The position numbers were made by a program, and so were the translations under genes. Under the pieces are notes generated by a model that saw only the letters and a program-made list of their open reading frames with translations, ran no database searches and was not told the origin of the DNA. Shown piece by piece: positions 1 through 13,950 of a DNA stretch of 21,188 nt. The stretch's first letter is position 1. Every line of letters starts with the position of its first letter. The DNA is from a virus: positions 1 to 21,188 of IMG/VR virus record IMGVR_UViG_3300020445_000097. One strand, given 5' to 3'.

Positions 1-3000
1 GGTGGTAGTGTCAATATCGGTGGTTCAGTAGATATCGATACTAACTTAGGTGTCACAGGCACATCACTCTTTACTGACGAAGTAGTAATAAAGGGTGCTT
101 CTAAGAGTTTCATACTTAAGGATGGTAGTAATAACGCTAAGATTACTGCAGTAACTACATCTGGTAATCTAACAATGGCAGGAATTCTTGCTGTTACAGG
201 TAATGTTGATGTTAATACTGACAAGTTTAATATAACAGCAGCATCTGGTAATACTGCTATTGCAGGTGTTACAACGATATCCAATGACGCTATTGTCAAG
301 GCAGACAATAAGATGTTCAAGGTTCAAACTGCTGCTGGTGTAGACAAGTTTACAGTTGATACAGATAATGGTAATACAGATCTTGAAGGTACATTAAATG
401 TTGGATCTTTAGTTCATCTTGAATCTACTGATGAACCTAACATTGCACTAAACAATGCTACAGACTTGTATGAGATACAGAGTTCTGACTATGGTGCATT
501 AAGAGTAGATGGTGGTGGATTCTTTGATAAGGCAGTATTGTTTGATAGTGATATCTACCTGAACGGAGACTTCAACCAGAGAGATAGTGGAACTGAGAGT
601 TGGGGTTTACGGAACTGGTTGCAGGTCAGATATAAGATCAGGGCTGGTTCTAGTGTTGCTTACAACCCAACTTATGCTACACATAATACTTCTAACCTAA
701 GAGTATATGGTGGTGCTGGTATTGCTCAGAACCTACATGTTGGTGCTACTGGATCTGGAGAAGGTTTCTTTGTAGGTAAAAAGAATAATGGTGATTCAAT
801 TAAGTTCCAAATTTTAGGTGCTACAGGTAATATAACATCTGAAGGTACACTAACTCAAAATGGTAACGCAGAATTTAATGGAACTGTTGATGTAGATGGT
901 AACTTTGCAGTTCGTTCTGGTACAACTGATAAGTTTACTATTGCTTCTGCTACTGGTAATGCAGTAAATGAAGGAGATCTAAATGTAAAAGGTGCAGTTG
1001 ATTTTGATACCACACTTAATGTTGATGGTGTTACTACATTACAAGGTCAAACAACTATTAATGAGTCACTCATTATTAATGCTGCTAATGAAGAGTTTGC
1101 TATTCAGAATGGTTCTGGTACTGATAAGTTTACAGTTGATACAGATAATGGTAATACATTAATTAAAGGTAGTCTCAGTGTTGATGGTGTAACTGCTATT
1201 GATAATGACTTTTCAGTTAGAGATGGTAGCAACACCTATAAGTTTAAAGTCCTCAATACAAGTGGTAATACAGATATAATTGGTACATTAACCGTTGGTG
1301 ATGCTACACAGATTAATGACACCTTCGGTGTTTCTGGTGTTGTAACTAGTACTAATAACACAGAGCAAACTTTATCAGGATCATATGCTGCTGATGGTTC
1401 TGTAAGACTCTCTGGTGGTCTTGGCATGGCTAAGAATCTAGCAGTTGGTGGCGGGGCACGAGTCTACGGTAATACAGAATTAACTGGTACATTAGATCTT
1501 AATAATGATGCTGATATATCTGGTAATTTAGTAGTTAGCAACACTGATGAAGCAACATCTCTTGCAGATGCTTCTGTTGCTCTACAAGTTGCTGGTGGTG
1601 CTACAATCGACAAGAATACATACGTTGGTGGAAACTTTGTAGTTTACGATGCTGGTAATACACGTCCAGCATTTACTGTAACTAATGCTACAGGTGATGC
1701 TGAACTTCATAATACATTAACGGTTGGAGGTAACTTAGTAGTAAATGGAACCACGACAACAGTTAACAGCACGACAGTTACTCTCGACGACCCTATTATT
1801 ACTCTGGGTGGTGACACAGCACCAGCGTCTAACGATGCTAAGGATCGTGGTGTTGAGTTCCGTTATTACGACGGTTCTGCGAAAATAGGTTTCTTTGGAT
1901 TTGATAGATCCTCACAAGAATTTACTTTCTTAACAGGTGCTACAAATACTTCTGAAGTATTTGCTGGTACTGATGGTGCATTGAGAATTGGTTCTCTAAA
2001 CGTTACTGGTGCAGGTACATCTGTTGACATTGATAATAACTTAAATGTTGATGGTACAGCAACAGTAGATGGTCAAATAATTTCTCAACTTGCTCAGGGT
2101 ACTGCTCCATTCGTAGTTGCATCTACTACAAAGGTTAACAATCTTAACGCAGATCTATTAGATGGATTAAATACAAGTGCTACAGATACAACTGGTAATA
2201 GTGTTGTAGTTAGATCATCTGGTAATTTCTCTGCTGATCAAATTACGGTCTCAAGTTCTGCTGGTGCTGCTGCTGGTATCTTAGGAAACGCATCTTCTGC
2301 TGATGTTTGGAAGACTGCTAGGACACTTACTATTGATGGTGTTGTAGATGGTACAGTATCAATCAATGGTGGTTCTGATCCAACACTCTCGGTTACATTT
2401 AATGATGCAGATATAACTGCACTTGCTGCACAGTCTGGTACTGGATACATGGTCAGGACTGCTGCAAACACATATGCTCATCGCACATTTGCGGTAACAG
2501 CATCTTCTGGTATAACTTTAACTAATGCTGATGGAACTTCTGGTAATACAACAATTAACGTTGCATCTTCTGCAGCTAACGCAGCCAACAACTTGGTCTT
2601 ACGTGACTCGTCTGGAGATTTTGCATCTAATCAAGTTAGTGCTAAACTTGTTGCAGGGAACGTTCAGGTAGGTGTTACAGGTACTAATGAGATTGATACC
2701 TCATCTGGTAATCTAACACTTGATTCTACTGGTGGAACTGTAGATATAGATGATATATTAACTGTTCAAGGAACTACAACATTCAATGATGATGTCACAT
2801 TTGTTGGCTCATCTGGTAATGCTGTTTGGGATAAGACGGACAATGCTCTTGAACTTGCAGACAATGTTGAATTAAAATTTGGTGCAGGAAGTGATCTGTT
2901 TATTGATTCAGATGGTACAGATGCATACTACAAATCAACAGGAACATCTAAACAAATAATTCAAACAGCACAACTTGAGGTTAAGAGTCAAGATGGTAGT

Positions 3001-6000
3001 GCATATGGACTTATAGTTGATGCTGACGGTTCAGTTACTTTAGGACATAATGGTACTGCTACATTTGTAACTACTGCTACTGGTGCTGAACTAACTGGTG
3101 ATCTACTTCCAGAAGCAAACAATACAAGAAGTATTGGTTCTACTACTAAGAAATATACAAACGTTCATTCAACAACCTTTACAGGTGATCTTGTTGGTGG
3201 TGTAACTGGTAATGTTTCTGGTAATGTAACTGGTAATTTAGTTGCAACTACATCAACTGCTAAGAATCTTAACCCTGCATCTGACAGTAATTTCGACTTA
3301 GGTACTAATACAGTTCGTTGGCAGAACATCTATGCTGATGCTGCAAATATTACAGCGATCACTGGTACTTTAACTGGTACTGCATCTAGTATTGCAAACC
3401 ATGATACTGATGCTCTTACTGAAGGATCTACAAATCTATACTACACTAACGAAAGAGTAGATGATAGAGTTGATGCTCTTATAGTTGCAGGTACAGGACT
3501 TACTAAGACTTATGATGATGCTGCTGGAACATACACACTAGCATTTGCATTCTCTGAGTTTGATAGTGATAGTGTTGTAGAAGGATCAACTAATCTCTTT
3601 ACTACTGCTGCTAGAACTAGAGGACACTTTACATATGGCACAGGTATTACACATGATGGTTCAGGTGGTCTATCTGTAACTCAGGCAGACATCAATACTG
3701 ATAACGTCACTGAAGGTTCAACTAATCTCTTTACTACTGCTGCACGCACGAGGACGCATTTCACATATGGAACTGGTATTACACATAGTTCAGGAACCCT
3801 ATCTGTAACTCAAGCAGATATTGATACCGACAATGTAACTGAAGGTTCTACCAACCTATTCACAACTGCTGCTCGTACACGTGGACACTTCACATATGGT
3901 ACAGGTATTGAACATAATGGTTCAGGTACTATATCGGTTACTCAATCTGAAATTAACACAGACAACGTAACTGAAGGATCTACAAATCTATTCACGACTG
4001 CTGCTAGAACTAGAACTCACTTTACATACGGTACTGGTATTACACACAGTGCTGGAACCCTATCAGTTACTCAGGCAGATATCAATACTGATAACATTAC
4101 TGAAGGATCTACAAATATATTCTTTACCAACACTCGTGCTGATACAAGAATTAACTTACAGACAGGTGCAAACTTAGATCTAAGTCAGAAGTCTACTACT
4201 AACCTTCCAGAAGGAACTAATCTATATCACACAGAAGCAAGAGTTCAAACAAAACTTGACAACGCCTTTGAGCAACTCAGAGCAATGTTAAACAATCTTG
4301 CTACTACAACAACATTAAAACTAAATCTATCTGGAGACCCAACTCCTGGTGCTGTTGTAACACTTGGATCTATCTCTAACGGTGGTGTTGGTGGATACAC
4401 ATCTGCCACAAACGTTGCTACAACAGGTGGTACAGGATCATCATTAACAGTTGACACTACAGCAAATGCTGATGGAGTCATCACTGGAATAGCTCTGAAT
4501 GCTGCTGGTACTGGATACTTAATAGGAGACACTCTAACAATTACTAACCCTAATCTTGGTGGTGTTGATACCTTTAACTTAGGTACTCTATCAGGTGGTG
4601 TTGGAGGATTCACTGGTGCTACTGGAGTTGCAACAACTTCCTCTGCAAGTGGTACTAATTTGACTGTAAACACTACTGTCAATGCTGATGGAGCAATCAC
4701 TAACGTTGCTATTAATAATGCTGGATCTGGATATGTTGCTGGTGAGACAATCACTATTGCTAACGCTAACGCAGGTGGAGTAGATACTGTTGACACTCTC
4801 GTGGGTGGTACAGGATATGCTAACGGCACTGCTATCGCAACTACAGGTGGTGGGGGAAGTTCTTTAACTCTTGACATCACAACATCTAATGGTGTTGTAA
4901 CTGGTGCTACTATTAACGCTGCTGGTACTGGATACGCAGTAGATGACACAATTACTATTGTGAACGCTAACGCAACTGGAGTTAGGACTCTTGGGTCTAT
5001 TGCTACTGCTGGTACAGGATATGCTGGTGGATCTGCTATTGCTACTACTTCCTCTGGAAGTGGTACAAACTTGACAGTTGATATTGCTGTTGATTCTGAT
5101 GGTGCTATAACAACTGCGACCATCAATGATGATGGATCTGGTTATGCAGCAGCTGAGACTATAACAATTACCAATGCTAACGCATCTGGAGTTAAGACTC
5201 TTGGATCTATTAGTGCAGGTGGTACAGGATACTCTGCTGGATCTGCAATCGCAACAACTTCTTCTGGAAGTGGTACAGGATTGACCGTTGATATTACAGT
5301 AAGTTCTGGGGTAGTCAATGGAGTTACCATTAACGGTGATGGATTAAATTATGCTGCATCTGAAGTAATTACAATTACTAACGCTAACGCATCTGGAATT
5401 GCAACTCTTGGATCTCTTGCTACTGCTGGTACTGGATATTCAACAGGAACTGCTATCGCAACAACATCATCTGGATCTGGAACCAGTGCAACTATTGACA
5501 TTACTTCTGTTTCTGGTACTGGTGCTATCACTGGTGTTGCACTTAATGGAGATGGTTCTGGTTATGCAGCATCTGAAGTCTTGACAATTACTAACGCTAA
5601 TGCCTCTGGAGCTAAGACTCTAGGAAACTTTGGTGCAACTGATTCATCAAGAACTCCTGGTACTTACACTGCCATTTCTTCTTATGTCTCTCAAGCATCT
5701 GGTCAAAATGCAACATTTACTGTTGTAATTGGCATAGGTGGAACTGTTGATTCTATAACTATTGTTAATGATGGTGATAGTTGGATTGTTAACGAGACAG
5801 TTACAATCGGTGATTCACAACTTGGTGGAGGTGGTGCTGCTGATCTCACATTCGATGTCACAGCAATTCATGGTAATGGTGCTACAATCCCAGTATCTGC
5901 CATACATGGAAACGGTGCAACTATACCTGTTTCTGCAATCCACGGAAACGGATGTACAATTCCTGTTTCTGCAATTCATGGTAATGGTGCAACAGTTGAT

Positions 6001-6252
6001 GTTGCTGCAATATGGGCTAACGCAACAGTGGATGTATCTACTGTATTTGAGAATGCTCAGTTTGCACTTGCTGATATTACAGCAATGGAAGTTGGAGCAA
6101 CTCTAACAGGTTCTACCTCTGGTACAACTGGAGTTATAACTGCTATGGATTCTACTTCTGTTACTGTCGATACTGTCGATGGTTTCTATAAGAAGGGAGA
6201 AACCGTTGGTGCTAATGATGTAACTAATTTGACTATAAGTTCATTCGGATAA
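1..6252 (+). CDS. Giant repetitive tail-fibre/whisker-like virion protein (5' truncated)
   Basis: The reading frame is open from base 1, so the true start lies upstream; 2083 codons are visible before TAA. The protein is rich in Gly, Thr, Asn, Asp and Ser and is built almost wholly of repeats. Approximate bases 1-1740 hold a fibre-shaft repeat of type DKFTVDTDNGNT followed by GTLNV. Near 1780-1815 is the LDDPIITLGGD block and near 2137-2166 NLNADLLDG, both common in marine T4-like phage fibres. Next come EGSTNLFTTAARTR repeats (3580-4107), glycine-rich repeats of about 70 residues (4363-5862), four 12-residue HGNG repeats (5863-6006), and a final GETV-type module. The position just before gp13 matches the fibre/whisker (wac) place of T4. 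A role as a fibre or neck/baseplate appendage is inferred from composition and place; no receptor-binding domain is identifiable. The stop lies 6 nt before gp13. Confidence 0.85.
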   Translation, partial: GGSVNIGGSVDIDTNLGVTGTSLFTDEVVIKGASKSFILKDGSNNAKITAVTTSGNLTMAGILAVTGNVDVNTDKFNITAASGNTAIAGVTTISNDAIVKADNKMFKVQTAAGVDKFTVDTDNGNTDLEGTLNVGSLVHLESTDEPNIALNNATDLYEIQSSDYGALRVDGGGFFDKAVLFDSDIYLNGDFNQRDSGTESWGLRNWLQVRYKIRAGSSVAYNPTYATHNTSNLRVYGGAGIAQNLHVGATGSGEGFFVGKKNNGDSIKFQILGATGNITSEGTLTQNGNAEFNGTVDVDGNFAVRSGTTDKFTIASATGNAVNEGDLNVKGAVDFDTTLNVDGVTTLQGQTTINESLIINAANEEFAIQNGSGTDKFTVDTDNGNTLIKGSLSVDGVTAIDNDFSVRDGSNTYKFKVLNTSGNTDIIGTLTVGDATQINDTFGVSGVVTSTNNTEQTLSGSYAADGSVRLSGGLGMAKNLAVGGGARVYGNTELTGTLDLNNDADISGNLVVSNTDEATSLADASVALQVAGGATIDKNTYVGGNFVVYDAGNTRPAFTVTNATGDAELHNTLTVGGNLVVNGTTTTVNSTTVTLDDPIITLGGDTAPASNDAKDRGVEFRYYDGSAKIGFFGFDRSSQEFTFLTGATNTSEVFAGTDGALRIGSLNVTGAGTSVDIDNNLNVDGTATVDGQIISQLAQGTAPFVVASTTKVNNLNADLLDGLNTSATDTTGNSVVVRSSGNFSADQITVSSSAGAAAGILGNASSADVWKTARTLTIDGVVDGTVSINGGSDPTLSVTFNDADITALAAQSGTGYMVRTAANTYAHRTFAVTASSGITLTNADGTSGNTTINVASSAANAANNLVLRDSSGDFASNQVSAKLVAGNVQVGVTGTNEIDTSSGNLTLDSTGGTVDIDDILTVQGTTTFNDDVTFVGSSGNAVWDKTDNALELADNVELKFGAGSDLFIDSDGTDAYYKSTGTSKQIIQTAQLEVKSQDGSAYGLIVDADGSVTLGHNGTATFVTTATGAELTGDLLPEANNTRSIGSTTKKYTNVHSTTFTGDLVGGVTGNVSGNVTGNLVATTSTAKNLNPASDSNFDLGTNTVRWQNIYADAANITAITGTLTGTASSIANHDTDALTEGSTNLYYTNERVDDRVDALIVAGTGLTKTYDDAAGTYTLAFAFSEFDSDSVVEGSTNLFTTAARTRGHFTYGTGITHDGSGGLSVTQADINTDNVTEGSTNLFTTAARTRTHFTYGTGITHSSGTLSVTQADIDTDNVTEGSTNLFTTAARTRGHFTYGTGIEHNGSGTISVTQSEINTDNVTEGSTNLFTTAARTRTHFTYGTGITHSAGTLSVTQADINTDNITEGSTNIFFTNTRADTRINLQTGANLDLSQKSTTNLPEGTNLYHTEARVQTKLDNAFEQLRAMLNNLATTTTLKLNLSGDPTPGAVVTLGSISNGGVGGYTSATNVATTGGTGSSLTVDTTANADGVITGIALNAAGTGYLIGDTLTITNPNLGGVDTFNLGTLSGGVGGFTGATGVATTSSASGTNLTVNTTVNADGAITNVAINNAGSGYVAGETITIANANAGGVDTVDTLVGGTGYANGTAIATTGGGGSSLTLDITTSNGVVTGATINAAGTGYAVDDTITIVNANATGVRTLGSIATAGTGYAGGSAIATTSSGSGTNLTVDIAVDSDGAITTATINDDGSGYAAAETITITNANASGVKTLGSISAGGTGYSAGSAIATTSSGSGTGLTVDITVSSGVVNGVTINGDGLNYAASEVITITNANASGIATLGSLATAGTGYSTGTAIATTSSGSGTSATIDITSVSGTGAITGVALNGDGSGYAASEVLTITNANASGAKTLGNFGATDSSRTPGTYTAISSYVSQASGQNATFTVVIGIGGTVDSITIVNDGDSWIVNETVTIGDSQLGGGGAADLTFDVTAIHGNGATIPVSAIHGNGATIPVSAIHGNGCTIPVSAIHGNGATVDVAAIWANATVDVSTVFENAQFALADITAMEVGATLTGSTSGTTGVITAMDSTSVTVDTVDGFYKKGETVGANDVTNLTISSFG
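3580..4107 (+). repeat. Fibre repeat block B, EGSTNLFTTAARTR units
   Basis: Four near-identical in-frame units of about 43 residues carry EGSTNLFTTAARTR, HFTYGTGI and LSVTQADI in that order. Diverged units flank them: EGSTNLYYTNERV upstream near 3420, and EGSTNIFFTNTRAD and PEGTNLYHTEARV downstream to about 4250. Protein identity is high while synonymous positions differ between copies, which points to old duplications under protein-level selection. EGSTNLYYT-type repeats are known from marine T4-like phage fibres. Confidence 0.9.
4363..5862 (+). repeat. Fibre repeat block C, about 70-residue Gly-rich units
   Basis: Six in-frame units of about 65-75 residues run from an LGSI-type start through GTGYAxGxAIATTSSGSG, a strand of LTVDI type, a GAIT turn, INxxGSGYAA, and an end of ETITITNANASGVKT type. 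A seventh diverged unit (from 5620) keeps the pattern but reads VNDGDSWIVNETVTIG. The regular strand-turn pattern suggests a repetitive beta shaft. Later copies are the most alike, as expected for recent tandem duplication at that end. Confidence 0.9.
5863..6006 (+). repeat. Four tandem 36-bp (12-residue) HGNG repeats
   Basis: Four adjacent 36-bp units encode AIHGNGATIPVS, the same again, AIHGNGCTIPVS, and AIHGNGATVDVA. A decayed fifth (AIWANATVDVS) follows. Each unit places one His and a GNG turn at the same register. The third unit holds the only cysteine I noticed in the visible protein. Confidence 0.92.
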
Positions 6253-8002: not shown

Positions 8003-9036
8003 TGTTAGGAACCTATTCATACCACGAAATATTTCGTAAAACTATTGTTGCCTTTGGTACTCTATTCAATAATATTGAATTGAGAAGACAAGATGAGGTG
8101 ATGAAAGTTCCTTTGGCTTATGGTCCGAAGCAGAAATTTTTAGCACGTTTGGATCAAAACCCTGATCCTACAAACAAAAGAGTTCAAATAACTCTTCCCA
8201 GATTATCATTTGAAATTTCTGGAATACAATACGACTCTACTAGGAAAGTTTCACCAACACAAAAGATACAGTTTAAGAGTAGTAATACTAAAAGTAAGAA
8301 TGCTTTTATGCCTGTACCTTATAATATAAATTTTGAATTAGCAATCATAGCAAAAAACCAAGATGATGGTTTACAGATTGTAGAACAGATATTACCATTC
8401 TTCCAACCTCATTATAATCTTGCAGTTAAACTAGCACCTTCTATAGGTGAAACAAAAGACGTTCCTGTAGTCCTTCAAGACCTTCAGTATGAGGATGACT
8501 ACGAAGGAGACTTTACATCTCGTAGAGCAATTATATACACATTTCAATTTATAGCAAAGACCTACCTATACGGACCAATTACAGAGTCCAAGATCATCAA
8601 GAAGGCACAGGTCGATATGTATACCTCCAAGGATACAACCAAGGCACCAAGACAGGTACGTTATACTGCTACTCCTACTGCACTAACAGATCAGGATGGA
8701 GTTGCAATTACTACCTTGTCATCACCTGTTGATTCTGATGATCAGAGACTAACAGTTGCCTCTGCTTCAGGCATTGCACAGTGGGATAATATCCAAGTTG
8801 GCAATGAGGTGATGAGAGTTACTGCTGTCAGTGGAAATGATGTTACTGTAATACGTGCACATAATAATACTACTGCTTCAGCACATGCTAGTGCAGCAAA
8901 TGTACTTAAGATAGACTCTGCTGATGATGCATTGCTAGATAGTGATGATGACTTTGGATTCAATGAAATCTATTCAGACTTTGTTGATAATAAGAAGTAT
9001 AATCCTGTGAGTGGAGCTGACGAGACAATAACATGA
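8002..9036 (+). CDS. 15: Tail completion / sheath stabiliser gp15
   Basis: 344 aa against about 272 in T4. In T4, gp15 forms the terminal hexamer that caps tube and sheath and joins the tail to the neck. The N-terminus MLGTYSYHEIFRKTIVAFGT, FNNIELRR and the KVPLAYGPKQKFLAR stretch are characteristic of the family. Residues 1-205 are the family core. Residues about 240-305 form an add-on with GIAQWDNIQVGNEVMRV and VIRAHNNTTASAH, followed by an Asp-rich tail. The start overlaps the gp14 stop by one base, and the stop overlaps the gp16 start (ATGA). Identification is firm; the add-on's role is unknown. Confidence 0.9.
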   Translation: MLGTYSYHEIFRKTIVAFGTLFNNIELRRQDEVMKVPLAYGPKQKFLARLDQNPDPTNKRVQITLPRLSFEISGIQYDSTRKVSPTQKIQFKSSNTKSKNAFMPVPYNINFELAIIAKNQDDGLQIVEQILPFFQPHYNLAVKLAPSIGETKDVPVVLQDLQYEDDYEGDFTSRRAIIYTFQFIAKTYLYGPITESKIIKKAQVDMYTSKDTTKAPRQVRYTATPTALTDQDGVAITTLSSPVDSDDQRLTVASASGIAQWDNIQVGNEVMRVTAVSGNDVTVIRAHNNTTASAHASAANVLKIDSADDALLDSDDDFGFNEIYSDFVDNKKYNPVSGADETIT

Positions 9037-9470
9037 ACCCATTTGAAGGACTAGATAAAGCATTTGGCAGTGAACCTTCTGAATTACAGAAGCATGTCGA
9101 AAAGGTGAAACCTTCTTTAAAGAAAAGTGAACAGGAGGATGTGATTAGTGATTACGAAACTTCTCGTGCTAATCTACACAACTTAGTAATGAAAGGACAA
9201 GAAGCAGTTGATGGCATTATGGATGTTGCAAGAGCATCCGATCATCCACGTGCTTATGAAGTCGCTGCTTTAATGATTAAAAACGTTGGAGATGTAACAG
9301 ATAAGTTAATTGATCTACAACGTAAGATGAAAGATTTGGATGCAGAAGACAAGAGAGTTACCAACAATACTACCAATGCTATGTTTGTTGGATCAACATC
9401 TGACCTACAGAAGATGTTAAAAAACATAAATAAATCAGAATCAACACGACAAGACAATGACAGTAATTAA
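9033..9470 (+). CDS. 16: Small terminase subunit gp16
   Basis: 145 aa, close to T4 gp16 (164 aa). The small terminase forms a ring that recognises the DNA and stimulates gp17 during packaging. The central SDHPRAYEVAALMIKNVGDV stretch is the most conserved part of T4-type small terminases. It is preceded by a helical segment (SRANLHNLVMKGQEAVDGI) and followed by a coiled-coil-like KLIDLQRKMKDLDAED. ATG overlaps the gp15 stop by 4 nt. The 3' end overlaps the next gene by 14 nt and carries a late-promoter-like CATAAATA. Confidence 0.88.
   Translation: MNPFEGLDKAFGSEPSELQKHVEKVKPSLKKSEQEDVISDYETSRANLHNLVMKGQEAVDGIMDVARASDHPRAYEVAALMIKNVGDVTDKLIDLQRKMKDLDAEDKRVTNNTTNAMFVGSTSDLQKMLKNINKSESTRQDNDSN
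9425..9432 (+). promoter_or_regulatory. Candidate late promoter CATAAATA
   Basis: 7/8 match to the T4 late consensus TATAAATA, 24 nt before the ATG at 9457. That spacing resembles the perfect late promoters elsewhere in the window (22-42 nt). It lies inside the gp16 coding end. In AT-rich DNA a one-mismatch hit can be chance. Confidence 0.4.
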
Positions 9471-9996
9471 TGTATTAAGCACTAACGCTTTAACTGCTGG
9501 TACACCAGAGTATCAAGTTGTAAAGACTGGGTATTACCGTGTAGTCGCAACAGGTGGTGATGGAACTATCGCATTCAATGATGGTCCTGCCATAACTCTA
9601 ATCCAAGATCAAGCAATTTTGGTTAAGGGTGGAAAGCCTGGTTCAGCAAAAGTAATGAAGGCTGTTGATGATTCAACTGCAGATTATGTTTTAGGAAGAC
9701 ATTTGCACGAGACATCACCTAGTCATCCATTTAGTGTAGGGGATTTTATTGCCGTTGAAGACGACAGTACTTCACCTGCTATTGACAGTAATTTTCTTTC
9801 TGCTGGCACTGCTGGTAAGAAGATAACTGCAGTCAGTACTTATAATCAAATTACTACAGATATAGATTCATCAGGTGCATCCGCAGATTATACCTACGGT
9901 CAATCTGGTCCTCAAGCTGTTGTTAAGCGTTGCGTTAAAGTCGCTGCTGTTACTAGCAACTGTGTACTAGAGGAAATTCAAGTAGTAGGTGGCTAA
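9457..9996 (+). CDS. Unrecognised protein, probably beta-rich virion component
   Basis: 179 aa; I cannot assign a family. The sequence is rich in Gly, Thr, Val and Asp with alternating strand-turn segments (GYYRVVATGGDGTIAF, ITLIQDQAILVKGGKPGSAK, VKRCVKVAAVTSNCVLEEIQ) and no membrane segment or enzyme motif. HLHETSPSHPFSVGDFI is a local His-containing stretch. It lies between gp16 and gp17, overlaps gp16 by 14 nt and may have its own late promoter at 9425. Composition and context suggest a small structural protein, but a non-virion role cannot be excluded. Confidence 0.75.
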   Translation: MTVINVLSTNALTAGTPEYQVVKTGYYRVVATGGDGTIAFNDGPAITLIQDQAILVKGGKPGSAKVMKAVDDSTADYVLGRHLHETSPSHPFSVGDFIAVEDDSTSPAIDSNFLSAGTAGKKITAVSTYNQITTDIDSSGASADYTYGQSGPQAVVKRCVKVAAVTSNCVLEEIQVVGG

Positions 9997-9998
9997 TA

Positions 9999-10661
9999 AT
10001 GCCAGCTGTTAATCAAGAAGCAGAACGTATAGTTAAAGGGATGAAGCGTCAATCAGCGAAACGCTTCAGAAGACTTTATGGGAAACGTGATAAAGAAGTC
10101 ATGTATGCGACTGCTAATAAATTGGCACAGAAGGAACAACTCAAGGTTATGTATTATAAAGATTTCATCAACATAGTAGAAGGAAATCCTACCACTAGGA
10201 TGTTAACCAAGTCAAAAACAAAAGTGACTGGTCATATTAGTGCAGATAGGGGTGGAGATGAAAAATCAAATAAAAAGAAACGAAAGGGTTTAGAAAAAGA
10301 TTTAAAAAAGAAAGGCATCGGATATAAGAAAGGTGTCGGAGAATACAAATACGACGATGGTAGTACAGGACGTGAAGTATCCTATCAAACTACAAAACCA
10401 GATAAAATGAGCAAGAGACGTTTCGGCAAACTAAGTCGTCGCCTCGGTAGAAAACATGGACAAGAATCTGTAATTACCAAAGACAAAGATAAACCCGCAA
10501 AGTTACATTACACCGATAAGAGTAAGAAGAAATCTGAAACGCTAGGCAAATCTAAGGCAGGAAAGCACCCAGATAGTTATGGTGAAACTTCAGGTACTAA
10601 AGTAAGAAGTGGGAAACTACCAAAGAAAACTAACAAACCAGCATACCACTACAACAAATAA
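9999..10661 (+). CDS. Unrecognised highly basic (Lys/Arg-rich) protein
   Basis: 220 aa starting 2 nt after the previous stop, so co-translated. The N-terminal part (residues 1-45) includes KRQSAKRFRRLYGKRDKEVM and a MYATANKLAQKE stretch. Residues about 78-170 run from GHISADRG through KKRKGLEKDLKKKGIGYKKG and EVSYQTTKP to KLSRRLGRKHGQESVI. This order (GHISADRG, helix, Gly strand, acidic-Ser strand, KxGQ) resembles small phage proteins of unknown function of DUF3293 type; that is recall, not a search. The C-terminal 60 residues are low-complexity and Lys-rich. The charge suggests nucleic-acid binding or an internal head protein (inference). A +1 frame continues for 32 codons past the stop. Confidence 0.75.
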   Translation: MPAVNQEAERIVKGMKRQSAKRFRRLYGKRDKEVMYATANKLAQKEQLKVMYYKDFINIVEGNPTTRMLTKSKTKVTGHISADRGGDEKSNKKKRKGLEKDLKKKGIGYKKGVGEYKYDDGSTGREVSYQTTKPDKMSKRRFGKLSRRLGRKHGQESVITKDKDKPAKLHYTDKSKKKSETLGKSKAGKHPDSYGETSGTKVRSGKLPKKTNKPAYHYNK

Positions 10662-10776: not shown

Positions 10777-10790
10777 TGGTATAATAAATA
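10777..10790 (+). promoter_or_regulatory. Extended -10 promoter overlapping a late-promoter motif
   Basis: TGGTATAAT (10777-10785) is a perfect extended -10 element (TGnTATAAT) of host sigma-70 type. AATAAATA (10783-10790), overlapping it, is a 7/8 match to the T4-type late promoter. No good -35 is seen at 17 nt, as expected for extended -10 promoters. The start codon of the 69-aa gene is 28 nt downstream, and GGAG (10804-10807) provides its ribosome binding site. Confidence 0.6.
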
Positions 10791-10818: not shown

Positions 10819-11028
10819 ATGTCCCACTATACTGTTGGTTATCACGACCTGCAAAAAAATAAGTACGAAATTTGCGAGTATGCCACGAGTGCATACGATG
10901 CAATAGAACACAGCAAAGAGGATGTCTCCTATCTACGGGAGCATCCTCATTCTATTGATTACTGCTCCAGCGAAGAGGTGAATAACATCTCTCGAATGAT
11001 GGCAGCAGGTATTCCTATGGGTCATTAA
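10819..11028 (+). CDS. Small hypothetical protein, 69 aa
   Basis: Starts MSHYTVGYHDLQKNKYEICE and contains YATSAYDAIEHSKEDVSYLR, REHPHSIDYC and a Met-rich end. The family is not recognised. It is soluble, with no signal or membrane segment, and is His/Tyr/Glu-rich. ATG is supported by GGAG 11 nt upstream and by the promoter at 10777. It is the first gene of the accessory cassette between the terminase genes and is followed 2 nt later by a tiny membrane-protein gene. An inverted repeat at 10918-10948 lies within it. Confidence 0.7.
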   Translation: MSHYTVGYHDLQKNKYEICEYATSAYDAIEHSKEDVSYLREHPHSIDYCSSEEVNNISRMMAAGIPMGH

Positions 11029-11030
11029 TT

Positions 11031-11144
11031 ATGAGCAACATAACAAGACATAAGCATGAGATCATGTGGTGGATGAGTAGACTTACAGTAATGGGAGTCT
11101 CACTAGGGTTAGCATTTAGACTTGCTGCTGAAGCATATGTTTAA
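11031..11144 (+). CDS. Tiny single-span membrane protein, 37 aa
   Basis: A 37-codon ORF from ATG 11031 to TAA 11142-11144, 2 nt after the preceding stop and overlapping the next gene by 8 nt. MSNITRHKHEIMWWMSRLTV gives a charged, His-containing N-terminus followed by a Trp-rich edge. The segment LTVMGVSLGLAFRLAA is one probable membrane helix. No family is recognised. Tight packing in the cassette supports it being a gene. Confidence 0.55.
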   Translation: MSNITRHKHEIMWWMSRLTVMGVSLGLAFRLAAEAYV

Positions 11145-11466
11145 ATTGACTAAAGAGGAGATAGGTTACAAACCTACAGATAAGATTCGCAAGATGTGGC
11201 TCCTCAATCCTCATGACCATCACATGCTATATGTGAGAGAGGATGGTTCCTTCTATGGGTTTACTCATATGAAAGGAGAGGATCCAGAAGAATGGTTTTG
11301 GGAACCAGATGGAATACAGACAGAGTTGTTTCCACCACCACCCCCTAAGAAGATTACATTTACACAAGAGCAACTTGATAGATCTCCTCACCATAATATG
11401 TTAGAGAAACACTATGGTAAGGATTGGAAACCTACACCACAGGAAGGACTAGAGGATCATTACTAA
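11137..11466 (+). CDS. Hypothetical protein, 109 aa
   Basis: I chose ATG 11137 over the upstream TTG at 11122 because it gives the natural MFKLTKEEIGYK start and an 8-nt overlap with the preceding gene. The protein has KMWLLNPHDHHMLYVREDGS, EEWFWEPDGIQTELF, a PPPPP run followed by KK, and the C-terminal HHNMLEKHYGKDWKP. It is Trp, His and Pro rich, with no membrane segment or recognised domain. TAA overlaps the next ATG by one base (TAATG), suggesting coupled translation. Confidence 0.65.
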   Translation: MFKLTKEEIGYKPTDKIRKMWLLNPHDHHMLYVREDGSFYGFTHMKGEDPEEWFWEPDGIQTELFPPPPPKKITFTQEQLDRSPHHNMLEKHYGKDWKPTPQEGLEDHY

Positions 11467-11612
11467 TGATAGTCTGGTCAATAAATATAATGTGTGCTAT
11501 ACTATTAGTAGCAGTTGGCATTTCAATTTATTGGATCTTTAAATATGATGATTGGTATCCTAATCCCATTATTACTTCTGATACCGACTCCGACCAAAGC
11601 GGAGGAAGTTGA
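11466..11612 (+). CDS. Small membrane protein, 48 aa
   Basis: ATG 11466 overlaps the previous stop (TAATG), which I prefer over the in-frame upstream start at 11424. The protein starts MIVWSINIMCAILLVAVGIS and continues IYWIFKYDDWYPNP, giving one strong membrane helix at residues about 2-26. A short acidic, Ser-rich tail (TSDTDSDQSGGS) follows. It overlaps the next gene by 68 nt in another frame. Unrecognised; the start coupling and the membrane helix support it. Confidence 0.5.
   Translation: MIVWSINIMCAILLVAVGISIYWIFKYDDWYPNPIITSDTDSDQSGGS
11480..11487 (+). promoter_or_regulatory. Weak candidate late promoter AATAAATA
   Basis: 7/8 match to TATAAATA inside the 48-aa gene and 57 nt before the ATG at 11545, slightly longer than the spacing of the perfect late promoters here. 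It may be chance in AT-rich DNA. Confidence 0.3.
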
Positions 11613-11802
11613 GGTTAATCCTTTTTATGGTCCTCCATTAGAAAGACAAGATCCCATTATTGATTGGAGTCCTGATCAATTTCATCAATGGATGGATAAG
11701 ATGAGAGAGTGGAAAGCAGAGCAAACTAGAACTGACCCAGAAGATTCCATAAATAAAGCTTTACTGGAATTTAACGATGGGAGCGATGACACCACCAAGT
11801 AG
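11545..11802 (+). CDS. Small secreted or membrane-anchored hypothetical protein, 85 aa
   Basis: I chose ATG 11545 over TTG 11515 because it starts a clean signal peptide: MMIGILIPLLLLIPTPTKA followed by EEVEV, with a plausible cleavage after Ala19. The mature part is acidic and Trp-containing (NPFYGPPLERQDP, DWSPDQFHQWMDKMREWKAE) and ends in an Asp/Thr-rich tail. No family is recognised. A phage protein with an export signal would act in the periplasm or inner membrane, consistent with lysis control or superinfection exclusion, but nothing specific shows this. It overlaps the neighbours on both sides (68 nt and 26 nt). Confidence 0.6.
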   Translation: MMIGILIPLLLLIPTPTKAEEVEVNPFYGPPLERQDPIIDWSPDQFHQWMDKMREWKAEQTRTDPEDSINKALLEFNDGSDDTTK

Positions 11803-12241
11803 GAAGTCCTGCTATAATTTTAGAGTTGTAAGTATTGATAAGGTTTTAGATGGTGATACTATCGATGTTACTATTGACCTCGGCTTTGATCTATACAAGA
11901 AAGAAAGAGTTAGAATTGCAGGAGTTGATACGCCAGAGAAGAGAACGAGAGATCTCGAAGAGAAGGCATTGGGATTAGATGCTACTGACTGGATGAAGAA
12001 ACATTTAGAAGATACAATCGAAGGAGATGAAGAACTTACTATTAGAACCGAACTCAAAGGTGGCATGGGTAAGTATGGTAGGCTTCTTGGTTGGTTATAT
12101 GTTGGCGAAGATACTATATCACTCAATGAACAAATGATTACAGAGGGTTATGCTTGGGAATATGATGGCGGGACTAAGCAAAAGAATTTTGAAGAGTTAC
12201 GTGAAATTAGGAGATCGTTTGGGACTTTGGATGAGTCTTGA
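11777..12241 (+). CDS. Staphylococcal-nuclease-like (thermonuclease) endonuclease
   Basis: 154 aa with an SNase (TNase) domain. All key residues of staphylococcal nuclease can be aligned: Asp27 in DGDT (Ca-binding D21), Arg46 (R35), Asp51 and Thr52 in RIAGVDTPE (D40, T41), Glu54 (E43, general base) and Arg102 in KYGR (R87). It is therefore probably an active Ca-dependent phosphodiesterase cutting DNA or RNA. No signal peptide is visible, so action is likely cytoplasmic unless partnered. ATG 11777 overlaps the previous gene by 26 nt; Met at 11786 is an alternative. It lies directly before the large terminase. Host DNA breakdown or a packaging-linked role is inference. Confidence 0.88.
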   Translation: MGAMTPPSRKSCYNFRVVSIDKVLDGDTIDVTIDLGFDLYKKERVRIAGVDTPEKRTRDLEEKALGLDATDWMKKHLEDTIEGDEELTIRTELKGGMGKYGRLLGWLYVGEDTISLNEQMITEGYAWEYDGGTKQKNFEELREIRRSFGTLDES

Positions 12242-12297: not shown

Positions 12298-13950
12298 ATG
12301 GCTAAGGTACAGGAAATATACTTAGGTAATCCCAACCTAAAGAAATCAAATGTTCAACAACGGTTTACTAAAAAACAAGTTGCTGAATATTTGAAGTGTG
12401 CTGAAGATCCTATTTACTTCATAAGAAAGTATATTAAAATTGTTTCTCTTGATGAAGGTATTGTACCTTTTAACATGTATCATTTCCAAGAAGAAATGGT
12501 TACAAAGTTTCATGAGAATAGATTTAATATTGCAAAATTACCACGACAGTCTGGTAAGTCAACGATTGTAACAGCGTACCTATTATGGTATGTACTTTTT
12601 AATGCTAATGTTAACGTTGCTATCCTTGCTAACAAGGCACCTACTGCACGTGAGATGCTACAACGTTTACAATTAAGTTATGAAAACCTCCCAAAATGGC
12701 TCCAACAAGGAATCGTCGGATGGAACAAAGGGAGCTTGGAACTGGAGAATGGAAGTAAAATCCTGGCTTCAGCTACTTCTAGCTCTGCTGTGCGGGGTAT
12801 GTCGTTTAATATCATATTTCTGGACGAGTTCGCTTTCGTTCCGAATCATATCGCTGATCAGTTTTTCAGTTCTGTCTATCCTACTATATCTTCTGGAAAA
12901 ACAACTAAAGTTATTATCATATCTACCCCACATGGGATGAACATGTTCTACAAACTCTGGCATGATGCAGAGCGTGGAGCAAATAATTACATGGCAACGG
13001 AAGTTCATTGGTCTGAAATTCCTGGTAGAGATGCAGCATGGAAACAACAAACTATTGAGAACACATCTGAAGCACAGTTTAGAGTTGAGTTTGAATGTGA
13101 GTTCTTAGGATCTGTTGATACTCTTATCAGTCCTAGTAAATTAAGAGTCATGCCATATGAAGATCCTATACAACAGAATAGAGGATTGGCAGTATATGAA
13201 AAAGTAGAAGCAGAAAAGAATTATATTGTTACAGTTGATGTATCTCGTGGGGTGGGAAATGATTACTCTGCTTTCTGTGTCATGGATACTACTACTGTAC
13301 CATATACAATGGTAGCACGATATAAAAACAATGAGATTAAACCAATAGTCTTCCCTAATATTGTGGTGGACATAGCAAAGAATTATAATAATGCATATAT
13401 CTTATGCGAAGTAAATGATATAGGTGGTCAGGTTGCGGATATTATACAGTACGATTTAGAATATGAAAACCTTCTTATGGTTGCAATGAGAGGTAGAGCA
13501 GGTCAACAATTAGGACAAGGTTTCTCTGGTAAGAAGACTCAACTTGGTATTAAGATGAGTACTGCTGTGAAACAAATTGGATGTTCTAACCTAAAAGCAC
13601 TAATAGAAGACGACAAATTAATCATAAAAGATTATGATACTATTGCGGAATTAACAACCTTCATTCAAAAGGGTCAATCATTCCAAGCGGAGGATGGATG
13701 TAATGATGACCTTGCTATGTGTCTAGTTATTTTTGCATGGATGGCTCTACAACCTTACTTTAAAGAAATGCATGATAATGATGTAAGGCAAAGAATATTT
13801 GATGATCAAAGAAATGCTATTGAACAAGACATGGCACCCTTTGGTTTAATTAATGATGGACTGGAAGATGACCATATAATTGATGCCCAAGGAGAGAGAT
13901 GGGAGATTGCGGAATACGGAGATATACAGCACATGTTAGACTTCAGGTGA
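12298..13950 (+). CDS. 17: Large terminase subunit gp17 (packaging ATPase-nuclease)
   Basis: 550 aa; T4 gp17 is 610 aa. The motor pumps DNA into the prohead through gp20 and cuts it. N-terminal ATPase: Walker A RQSGKST (residues 83-89), Walker B IIFLDE with Asp176 and Glu177, and coupling motif STP (209-211). C-terminal RNase-H-like nuclease: Asp314 in TVDVSRG, Glu371 in LCEVND and Asp471 in NDDLAM, matching the three acidic metal ligands of T4 gp17. An in-frame TAG at 12289 excludes any earlier start. Unlike T4, gp16 and gp17 are separated by about 2.8 kb of other genes. No intron or intein interrupts it. Confidence 0.96.
   Translation: MAKVQEIYLGNPNLKKSNVQQRFTKKQVAEYLKCAEDPIYFIRKYIKIVSLDEGIVPFNMYHFQEEMVTKFHENRFNIAKLPRQSGKSTIVTAYLLWYVLFNANVNVAILANKAPTAREMLQRLQLSYENLPKWLQQGIVGWNKGSLELENGSKILASATSSSAVRGMSFNIIFLDEFAFVPNHIADQFFSSVYPTISSGKTTKVIIISTPHGMNMFYKLWHDAERGANNYMATEVHWSEIPGRDAAWKQQTIENTSEAQFRVEFECEFLGSVDTLISPSKLRVMPYEDPIQQNRGLAVYEKVEAEKNYIVTVDVSRGVGNDYSAFCVMDTTTVPYTMVARYKNNEIKPIVFPNIVVDIAKNYNNAYILCEVNDIGGQVADIIQYDLEYENLLMVAMRGRAGQQLGQGFSGKKTQLGIKMSTAVKQIGCSNLKALIEDDKLIIKDYDTIAELTTFIQKGQSFQAEDGCNDDLAMCLVIFAWMALQPYFKEMHDNDVRQRIFDDQRNAIEQDMAPFGLINDGLEDDHIIDAQGERWEIAEYGDIQHMLDFR

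Follow-up and report, generated by a model that had tools for sequence, protein, structure and literature searches.

The DNA analysed here (the window) is a virus sequence of 21,188 bases with a T4-like gene order from gp13 to gp23, in which gp13, gp14 and gp18-gp23 were named by order and resemblance rather than by family search. The best matches for the large terminase gp17 and for the staphylococcal nuclease homolog (SNase) encoded upstream of it came from Prochlorococcus and Synechococcus myoviruses. A first-pass annotation made from the sequence alone had described some 2.8 kb between the terminase genes, filled in part by six overlapping or nearly contiguous ORFs. This description was accurate: the spacing between the end of gp16 (9470) and the start of gp17 (12298) is 2827 nt, and all six ORFs are present at the sizes given (69, 37, 109, 48 and 85 aa plus the SNase; Table 1). 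The 37-aa and 109-aa genes overlap by 8 nt, the 109-aa and 48-aa genes by 1 nt and the 48-aa and 85-aa genes by 68 nt, while the 85-aa gene enters the SNase gene by 26 nt in a different frame. The terminase interval also encodes a 179-aa DUF7243 protein and a 220-aa basic protein, adjoining gp16. The basic protein matched PF23780 (S-adenosylmethionine lyase family) at 30.8 bits, with a Pfam cut-off of 28, a match that may be compositional because the protein is very lysine-rich. At the left end of the window (1-6252, + strand), a 2083-aa ORF that is open at the window start and contains many short internal repeats (e.g. TEGSTNLFTTAARTR) probably encodes a tail fibre or other structural protein.

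Table 1. Genes and promoter motifs of the terminase interval; positions are those of the window.
Feature	Position	Strand	Remarks
gp16, small terminase	9033..9470	+	PF11053 34.7 bits (cut-off 25), phrog_445 E 4e-60; left border of the exchange region
179-aa protein, DUF7243, phrog_682	9457..9996	+	Stable neighbour; homolog at the equivalent place in P-SSM4
220-aa basic protein, phrog_12788	9999..10661	+	Stable neighbour; identity 98% in L426, 93% in L019
Late-promoter motif AATAAATA	10783..10790	+	36 nt 5′ of the 69-aa gene
69-aa protein, phrog_8866 family	10819..11028	+	Optional member; 33/68 non-redundant SNase loci
37-aa protein	11031..11144	+	Optional member; 11/68 SNase loci; dN/dS 0.08 against L019
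109-aa protein, phrog_14292	11137..11466	+	Rare member; 4/68 SNase loci
48-aa single-span membrane protein (alignment A3 family, phrog_25423/814)	11466..11612	+	Near-constant SNase partner
85-aa exported protein, phrog_15947	11545..11802	+	Cysteine-free, with hydrophobic N-terminus MMIGILIPLLLLIPTPTKA; optional, inserted between the 48-aa gene and SNase
Late-promoter motif CATAAATA within the 85-aa gene	11748..11755	+	29 nt 5′ of the SNase start
SNase, 154 aa, T4-GC228 family, phrog_452	11777..12241	+	N-terminal MGAMTPPSRKSCYNFRV, no export signal
gp17, large terminase	12298..13950	+	PF03237/PF17289; right border; inherited separately from SNase

According to the consulted parts of PMC2984593, cyanomyoviruses carry 4 to 14 inserted genes in a hyper-variable stretch bounded by g15 and g18, the hyperplastic region that this source attributes to Millard et al. 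2009. The consulted parts of PMC3037559 name the gp16-gp17 interval a 'hot-spot' and place the T4-GC228 endonuclease in a possible mobile cassette of metabolic genes. On whether T4-GC228 or T4-GC282 is a decayed homing gene, the main text and a supplement legend of that paper, as far as consulted, conflict; our data fit the legend. P-SSM4 has an equivalent arrangement with T4-GC228 5′ of gp17 and, together with the published cyanomyovirus layout, this indicates that split terminase genes are usual in the phage group and not peculiar to the window phage. The window interval is positioned within the structural module, between g15 and g18, and gene content there varies between relatives, with 14 combinations of the five small genes among 68 loci. 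It is almost certainly the cyanomyovirus hyperplastic region, an exchange region, which it resembles in position, in its variable small genes, in having the SNase as a frequent 3′ member and in its gp16 and gp17 borders; it differs in containing no recognised metabolic gene (petE, PTOX, gnd, zwf or pcyA). Membrane-like segments were found in 50 of 121 other small annotated genes from 21 phage loci, many of them beside petE and PTOX. A Fisher comparison of these with the SNase partners (20/20) counted related partners as independent and is given no evidential weight.

The nuclease scored 51.2 bits against PF00565 (cut-off 21) and belongs to phrog_452; the Pfam search returned PF00565 only, with no GIY-YIG, HNH, LAGLIDADG or related homing domain. 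An AF2 model built from 15 relatives (pLDDT 74.7) gave Foldseek matches to staphylococcal nucleases from E 2.3e-6 (TM 0.59, ∼22% identity over the structural match), and the predicted fold is that of staphylococcal nuclease (OB-type). At the sequence level the PDB yielded no match, either to the single SNase sequence or to a profile. Residues D27, R46, D51, T52, E54, K99, Y100 and R102 were invariant in 85/85 sequences, as was the N-terminal PPSRKSCYNFRV, upholding the earlier statement that the protein has all SNase catalytic residues; the invariant Asp, Arg, Asp, Glu and Arg are, we presume from the motifs, the staphylococcal catalytic set. While the window SNase shares the fold and catalytic residues of staphylococcal nuclease, it has neither a signal peptide nor a membrane segment, and it carries an extra invariant N-terminal PPSRKSCYNF. 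With the T4-GC228 endonucleases (P-SSM4 PSSM4_099 and P-HM2 PHM2_226; also Syn9 gp125) it forms a common family at 82-86% identity, with an equal N-terminus and a similar kind of neighbours, the sole difference being the set and order of upstream genes.

Matches to the SNase numbered 554, one in each of 554 phage records; 370 of these records bear the name Synechococcus phage, cyanophage or Prochlorococcus phage. Relatives of gp17 at ≥60% identity were found in 465 records; most, not all, therefore carry the SNase. Of the IMG/VR records G026 and G032 (those of loci L342 and L229), one has a stop codon within the SNase and the other matches it in two pieces that overlap; these are broken copies or sequencing errors. 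Two SNase relatives at ∼49% identity are encoded on the chromosome of the freshwater cyanobacterium Anabaenopsis elenkinii (L093, L094). They align from residue 10 onward, the first part of the phage N-terminus being missing.

Selection was assessed for each of the six genes. Against the closest relative, L426, dN/dS was 0.20 for the 69-aa gene, 0.13 for both the 109-aa and the 85-aa gene and 0.05 for the SNase, whose range was 0.05-0.08; the value for the 37-aa gene is listed in Table 1. Pairwise values for the 48-aa gene (0.77 and 1.01) are spoiled by gene overlap, and its family gave a median of 0.15 (986 pairs, 51 distinct genes). These comparisons indicate that all six are real genes, with purifying selection seen pairwise for five and via the family for the 48-aa gene.

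The first-pass annotation had further proposed that the six genes form a functional cassette, and it took small genes in random combinations among SNase-bearing relatives as a sign against this. Co-occurrence was scored by tblastn in those non-redundant SNase loci, 68 without the window, that have 2.5 kb or more of upstream sequence. Such combinations are what we found, and the six-gene unit did not hold: the 48-aa gene was detected in 37 loci and the 85-aa gene in 26 (the other three genes are in Table 1), 23 loci had none of the five small genes, and only L019 had them all. In the reverse direction, starting from the 69-aa protein, 80 loci were found; an SNase followed in 37 of them, and in 18 of the 25 whose downstream sequence extends for 3.5 kb or more. 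L426, which lies outside the 68-locus census, also has all five. Its flanking genes are 95-99% identical to those of the window, the 69-, 37- and 109-aa genes are 72-84% identical, and synonymous divergence of these three is several times that of the flanking genes. By these comparisons L426 is a recombination mosaic relative to the window. The genes further upstream of the 48-aa gene are exchanged separately. What survives of the proposed association between the nuclease and membrane or exported partners is narrower: the 48-aa membrane family is tied to the SNase, and an exported protein is often encoded between them.

The SNase loci comprised the best 80 by SNase identity, among which conservation is biased upward because they were picked by closest identity, and 20 further phage regions added as an offset (16 from the spread listing, 4 from the best listing). 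SNase loci totalled 110, of which 91 were counted as non-redundant. A search with the 48-aa family alone yielded 80 loci, four of which end within 500 nt. In the 76 with ≥500 nt downstream or an SNase in view, the SNase was adjacent in 68, 56 of them at an identical offset. The remaining eight have a membrane gene without an adjoining SNase, with its own stop and overlapping gp17 or another gene; no SNase was found elsewhere on those eight fragments. Among 24 SNase-bearing phage genomes, 23 contained exactly one copy of the 48-aa family, and coordinate comparison placed a copy <600 nt upstream of the SNase and on the SNase's strand in 22. The exceptions are S-TIM66, where the membrane gene lies about 5 kb from a divergent SNase, and S-RIM8, where the family fell below threshold though the sequence shows a peptide like it. 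Both genes are missing from S-PM2 and from its deletion mutant, and both are present in S-SSM7 and S-SKS1. In 29 contigs chosen from earlier matches, a biased sample, the SNase was present in all and the membrane gene in 28. The single-span membrane gene and the SNase are very probably a co-inherited unit. In S-SKS1 the two are separated by a single gene annotated as a homing endonuclease (L447, 2215-2664), which marks the junction as an insertion spot. The papers returned by literature searches, judged mostly by title and the opening of the abstract, contained no description of a membrane peptide-SNase pair or of an SNase function in cyanophages. The region and the nuclease are already known; the pair is the part worth testing.

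Inheritance was compared through pairwise distances rather than trees, and the related loci entering these correlations are not independent. Distances for gp15, gp16, gp17 and gp18 agreed with one another in each of the three pairs compared (r 0.86-0.94; gp17-gp18 0.90, gp17-gp16 0.94), and the two halves of the SNase agreed with each other (r 0.70, 91 loci). The SNase itself gave r 0.05 with gp17 (32 loci), 0.10 with gp16 (17 loci) and 0.18 with gp18 (19 loci; 36/999 permutations as high). With its upstream partner it gave r 0.54 in 35 single-span loci and 0.48 in 40 exported-class loci selected without regard to gp17; exported-class loci with gp17 gave r 0.13 but number only six. In 22 common single-span loci, SNase-partner r was 0.66 (0/999 permutations), SNase-gp17 r was 0.145 (31/999 permutations as high) and partner-gp17 r was 0.151. 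The SNase adjoins gp17 in 10 of 18 sampled phage genomes and lies elsewhere in eight. These results show the membrane-SNase module to move among cyanophage genomes independently of gp17.

A promoter had been placed at 10777 in the first-pass annotation. It is better read as the late motif at 10783, a copy of the cyanophage consensus NATAAATA given in the portions of the literature consulted. Late motifs number nine on the + strand of the window and none on the − strand; 50 shuffles averaged 3.6 and reached at most 9. Of the 91 SNase loci, 36 have NATAAATA within 60 nt of the SNase start, at one of a few set distances, compared with a shuffle control of mean 1.9 and maximum 6 and with 1/83, 3/87 and 0/91 in neighbouring control windows. 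When loci were divided by partner class, set by patterns with 5/80 reassigned by eye, the motif was present in 33/44 exported, 0/36 single-span and 3/11 partnerless loci. Because none of the 36 loci with the membrane gene directly before the SNase has the motif, late expression cannot be generalised from it. At the motif site in the exported class, Ile is encoded by ATA in 87/87 and Asn by AAT in 87/87, while other Ile codons in those ORFs are ATA in 225/428. Where no SNase follows the exported gene, inspection of the sequences found the motif missing in 14 of 18 loci. It is likely that the window SNase has its own late promoter, the motif at 11748. The single-span A3 genes contain the DNA TATATACTA at codons 20-25, at the end of the membrane span, with few codon alternatives compared with other sites; where NATAAATA is missing, this stretch may conceal a different kind of promoter.

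The 85-aa-type exported protein is an optional insert, found between the membrane gene and the SNase in some phages including that of the window. Its anchor varies and can be a signal peptide, a lipobox, or a coiled coil with a membrane span. In L042 and L054 a coiled-coil membrane anchor is joined to the cysteine-containing outer part that lipoproteins carry elsewhere; here the anchor has been swapped and the exported part kept.

Two readings of the SNase junction were rejected. The upstream ORF usually enters the SNase gene in another frame, as expected if a programmed frameshift joined the nuclease to the membrane or exported protein. This was discarded because an ATG stands at the SNase start in 90/91 loci, a Shine-Dalgarno-like site precedes it in 62/91 (6/83 in the control) and sequence changes in the overlap are synonymous when read in the SNase frame; a nuclease translated from its own ATG, as we propose, would not be a frameshift fusion. 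The second reading was a common functional tail, DAINxAL...GSDDTTK, on unrelated upstream proteins. It fails because the closing residues of this tail come from reading the start of the SNase gene in another frame, and DAIN is where the promoter motif is encoded. A late promoter embedded in the coding end of a neighbouring gene can in this way give unrelated genes what looks like a conserved tail.

As a whole, the observations are best explained, in our moderately confident view, by an exchanged membrane-peptide/nuclease pair that is expressed late and probably degrades host DNA inside the cell. In the window phage, a NATAAATA promoter inside the 3′ end of the 85-aa gene would drive late transcription of the SNase. 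The product, a putative calcium-dependent, sequence-nonspecific nuclease, would act inside the cell with host DNA as its presumed main target, and the membrane peptide would most likely hold or restrain it at a host membrane. Host-DNA cutting as the job of the SNase is a tentative assignment, and a tethering or controlling role for the peptide is doubtful. T4 itself cuts host DNA with denA, denB and ndd. In the consulted parts of PMC2984593 these three genes are reported absent from cyanomyoviruses, and the literature, as far as consulted, reports that host DNA is broken down in a matter of hours when Syn9 or P-HM2 infects; the host-DNA reading is based on this reported absence and rapid loss. 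The likeness to the T4 genes concerns the proposed job only, and no sequence relation is claimed. The reading has weak points: a late promoter suits early host-DNA breakdown poorly, late synthesis of a nonspecific nuclease would put phage DNA at risk, and staphylococcal nuclease yields 3′-nucleotides, not direct dNTP precursors. A bolder version, rather unlikely in our estimate, would make peptide and SNase a dedicated two-part system in which the peptide keeps the nuclease off phage DNA or steers it to membrane-bound host DNA, the pair being traded as one piece whatever else travels and constituting the missing host-DNA destroyer of T4-like cyanophages.

Other roles were weighed against this one. 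A mobility role for T4-GC228 was proposed by Sullivan et al. 2010 (PMC3037559, consulted in part), and the SNase could accordingly be a recombination or mobility factor whose cuts promote regional exchange, spreading itself and neighbouring genes. Its history is indeed decoupled from those of gp17, gp18 and gp16, it stands last in a cassette of small and metabolic genes both beside gp17 and elsewhere, and L426 is a mosaic with near-identical flanks and far more divergent 69-, 37- and 109-aa genes. However, the SNase does not have a homing-nuclease fold, and to our knowledge the PF00565 fold has no site specificity. Single-copy occurrence, catalytic residues that are never lost and low dN/dS argue that, in contrast to decaying homing genes, it is maintained in working form, and we consider a mobility role unlikely, though to be taken seriously. 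A nuclease made late beside the terminase might instead aid DNA packaging or trim branched DNA, as the HNH nuclease of HK97 and endonuclease VII of T4 do. The late motif and the frequent position directly 5′ of gp17 would suit such a role; the lack of Endonuclease_7 in 24 cyanophage genomes carries no weight, as the positive control failed too. A packaging partner would not be expected to lie away from gp17 in 8/18 sampled genomes or to have a history independent of gp17 and gp16, and we know of no structure-specific activity for the SNase fold, leaving this role improbable.

The membrane and exported genes invite two further interpretations. The first-pass annotation had suggested envelope-located attack on incoming DNA, that is, superinfection exclusion in which envelope proteins and the nuclease jointly destroy the DNA of a second phage. 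The near-constant small membrane partner and the exported or lipoprotein insert of many loci are in keeping with it, but an SNase without signal peptide or membrane segment and with its own late-type motif, found in the exported-insert class, speaks against stopping incoming phage DNA. The exported gene is moreover not always present, and in 18 of 77 judgeable loci it stands without the SNase; membrane-like small genes are so common in this region that finding them says little for envelope attack. This suggestion found no support and is very improbable. The same genes could be holin- or spanin-like lysis genes that merely lie before the SNase. One insert class combines a coiled coil and a membrane span with a weak match to the phrog_1193 hemolysin (E 3.6e-5), another has a lipobox, and the motif is of the late type. 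Yet holin-family matches were at chance level (E 0.02-0.08), the anchors substitute for one another rather than forming a two-part spanin set, and the window 85-aa protein, having no cysteine, lacks the lipobox that its relatives in other phages possess; a lysis function is distinctly unlikely.

By published accounts, cyanomyoviruses break down host DNA although they have none of the T4 genes for doing so. The nuclease-membrane peptide pair, our preferred explanation for the locus, offers a concrete candidate for this activity: it is near-constant, is inherited apart from its neighbours and has a readable promoter in many relatives.
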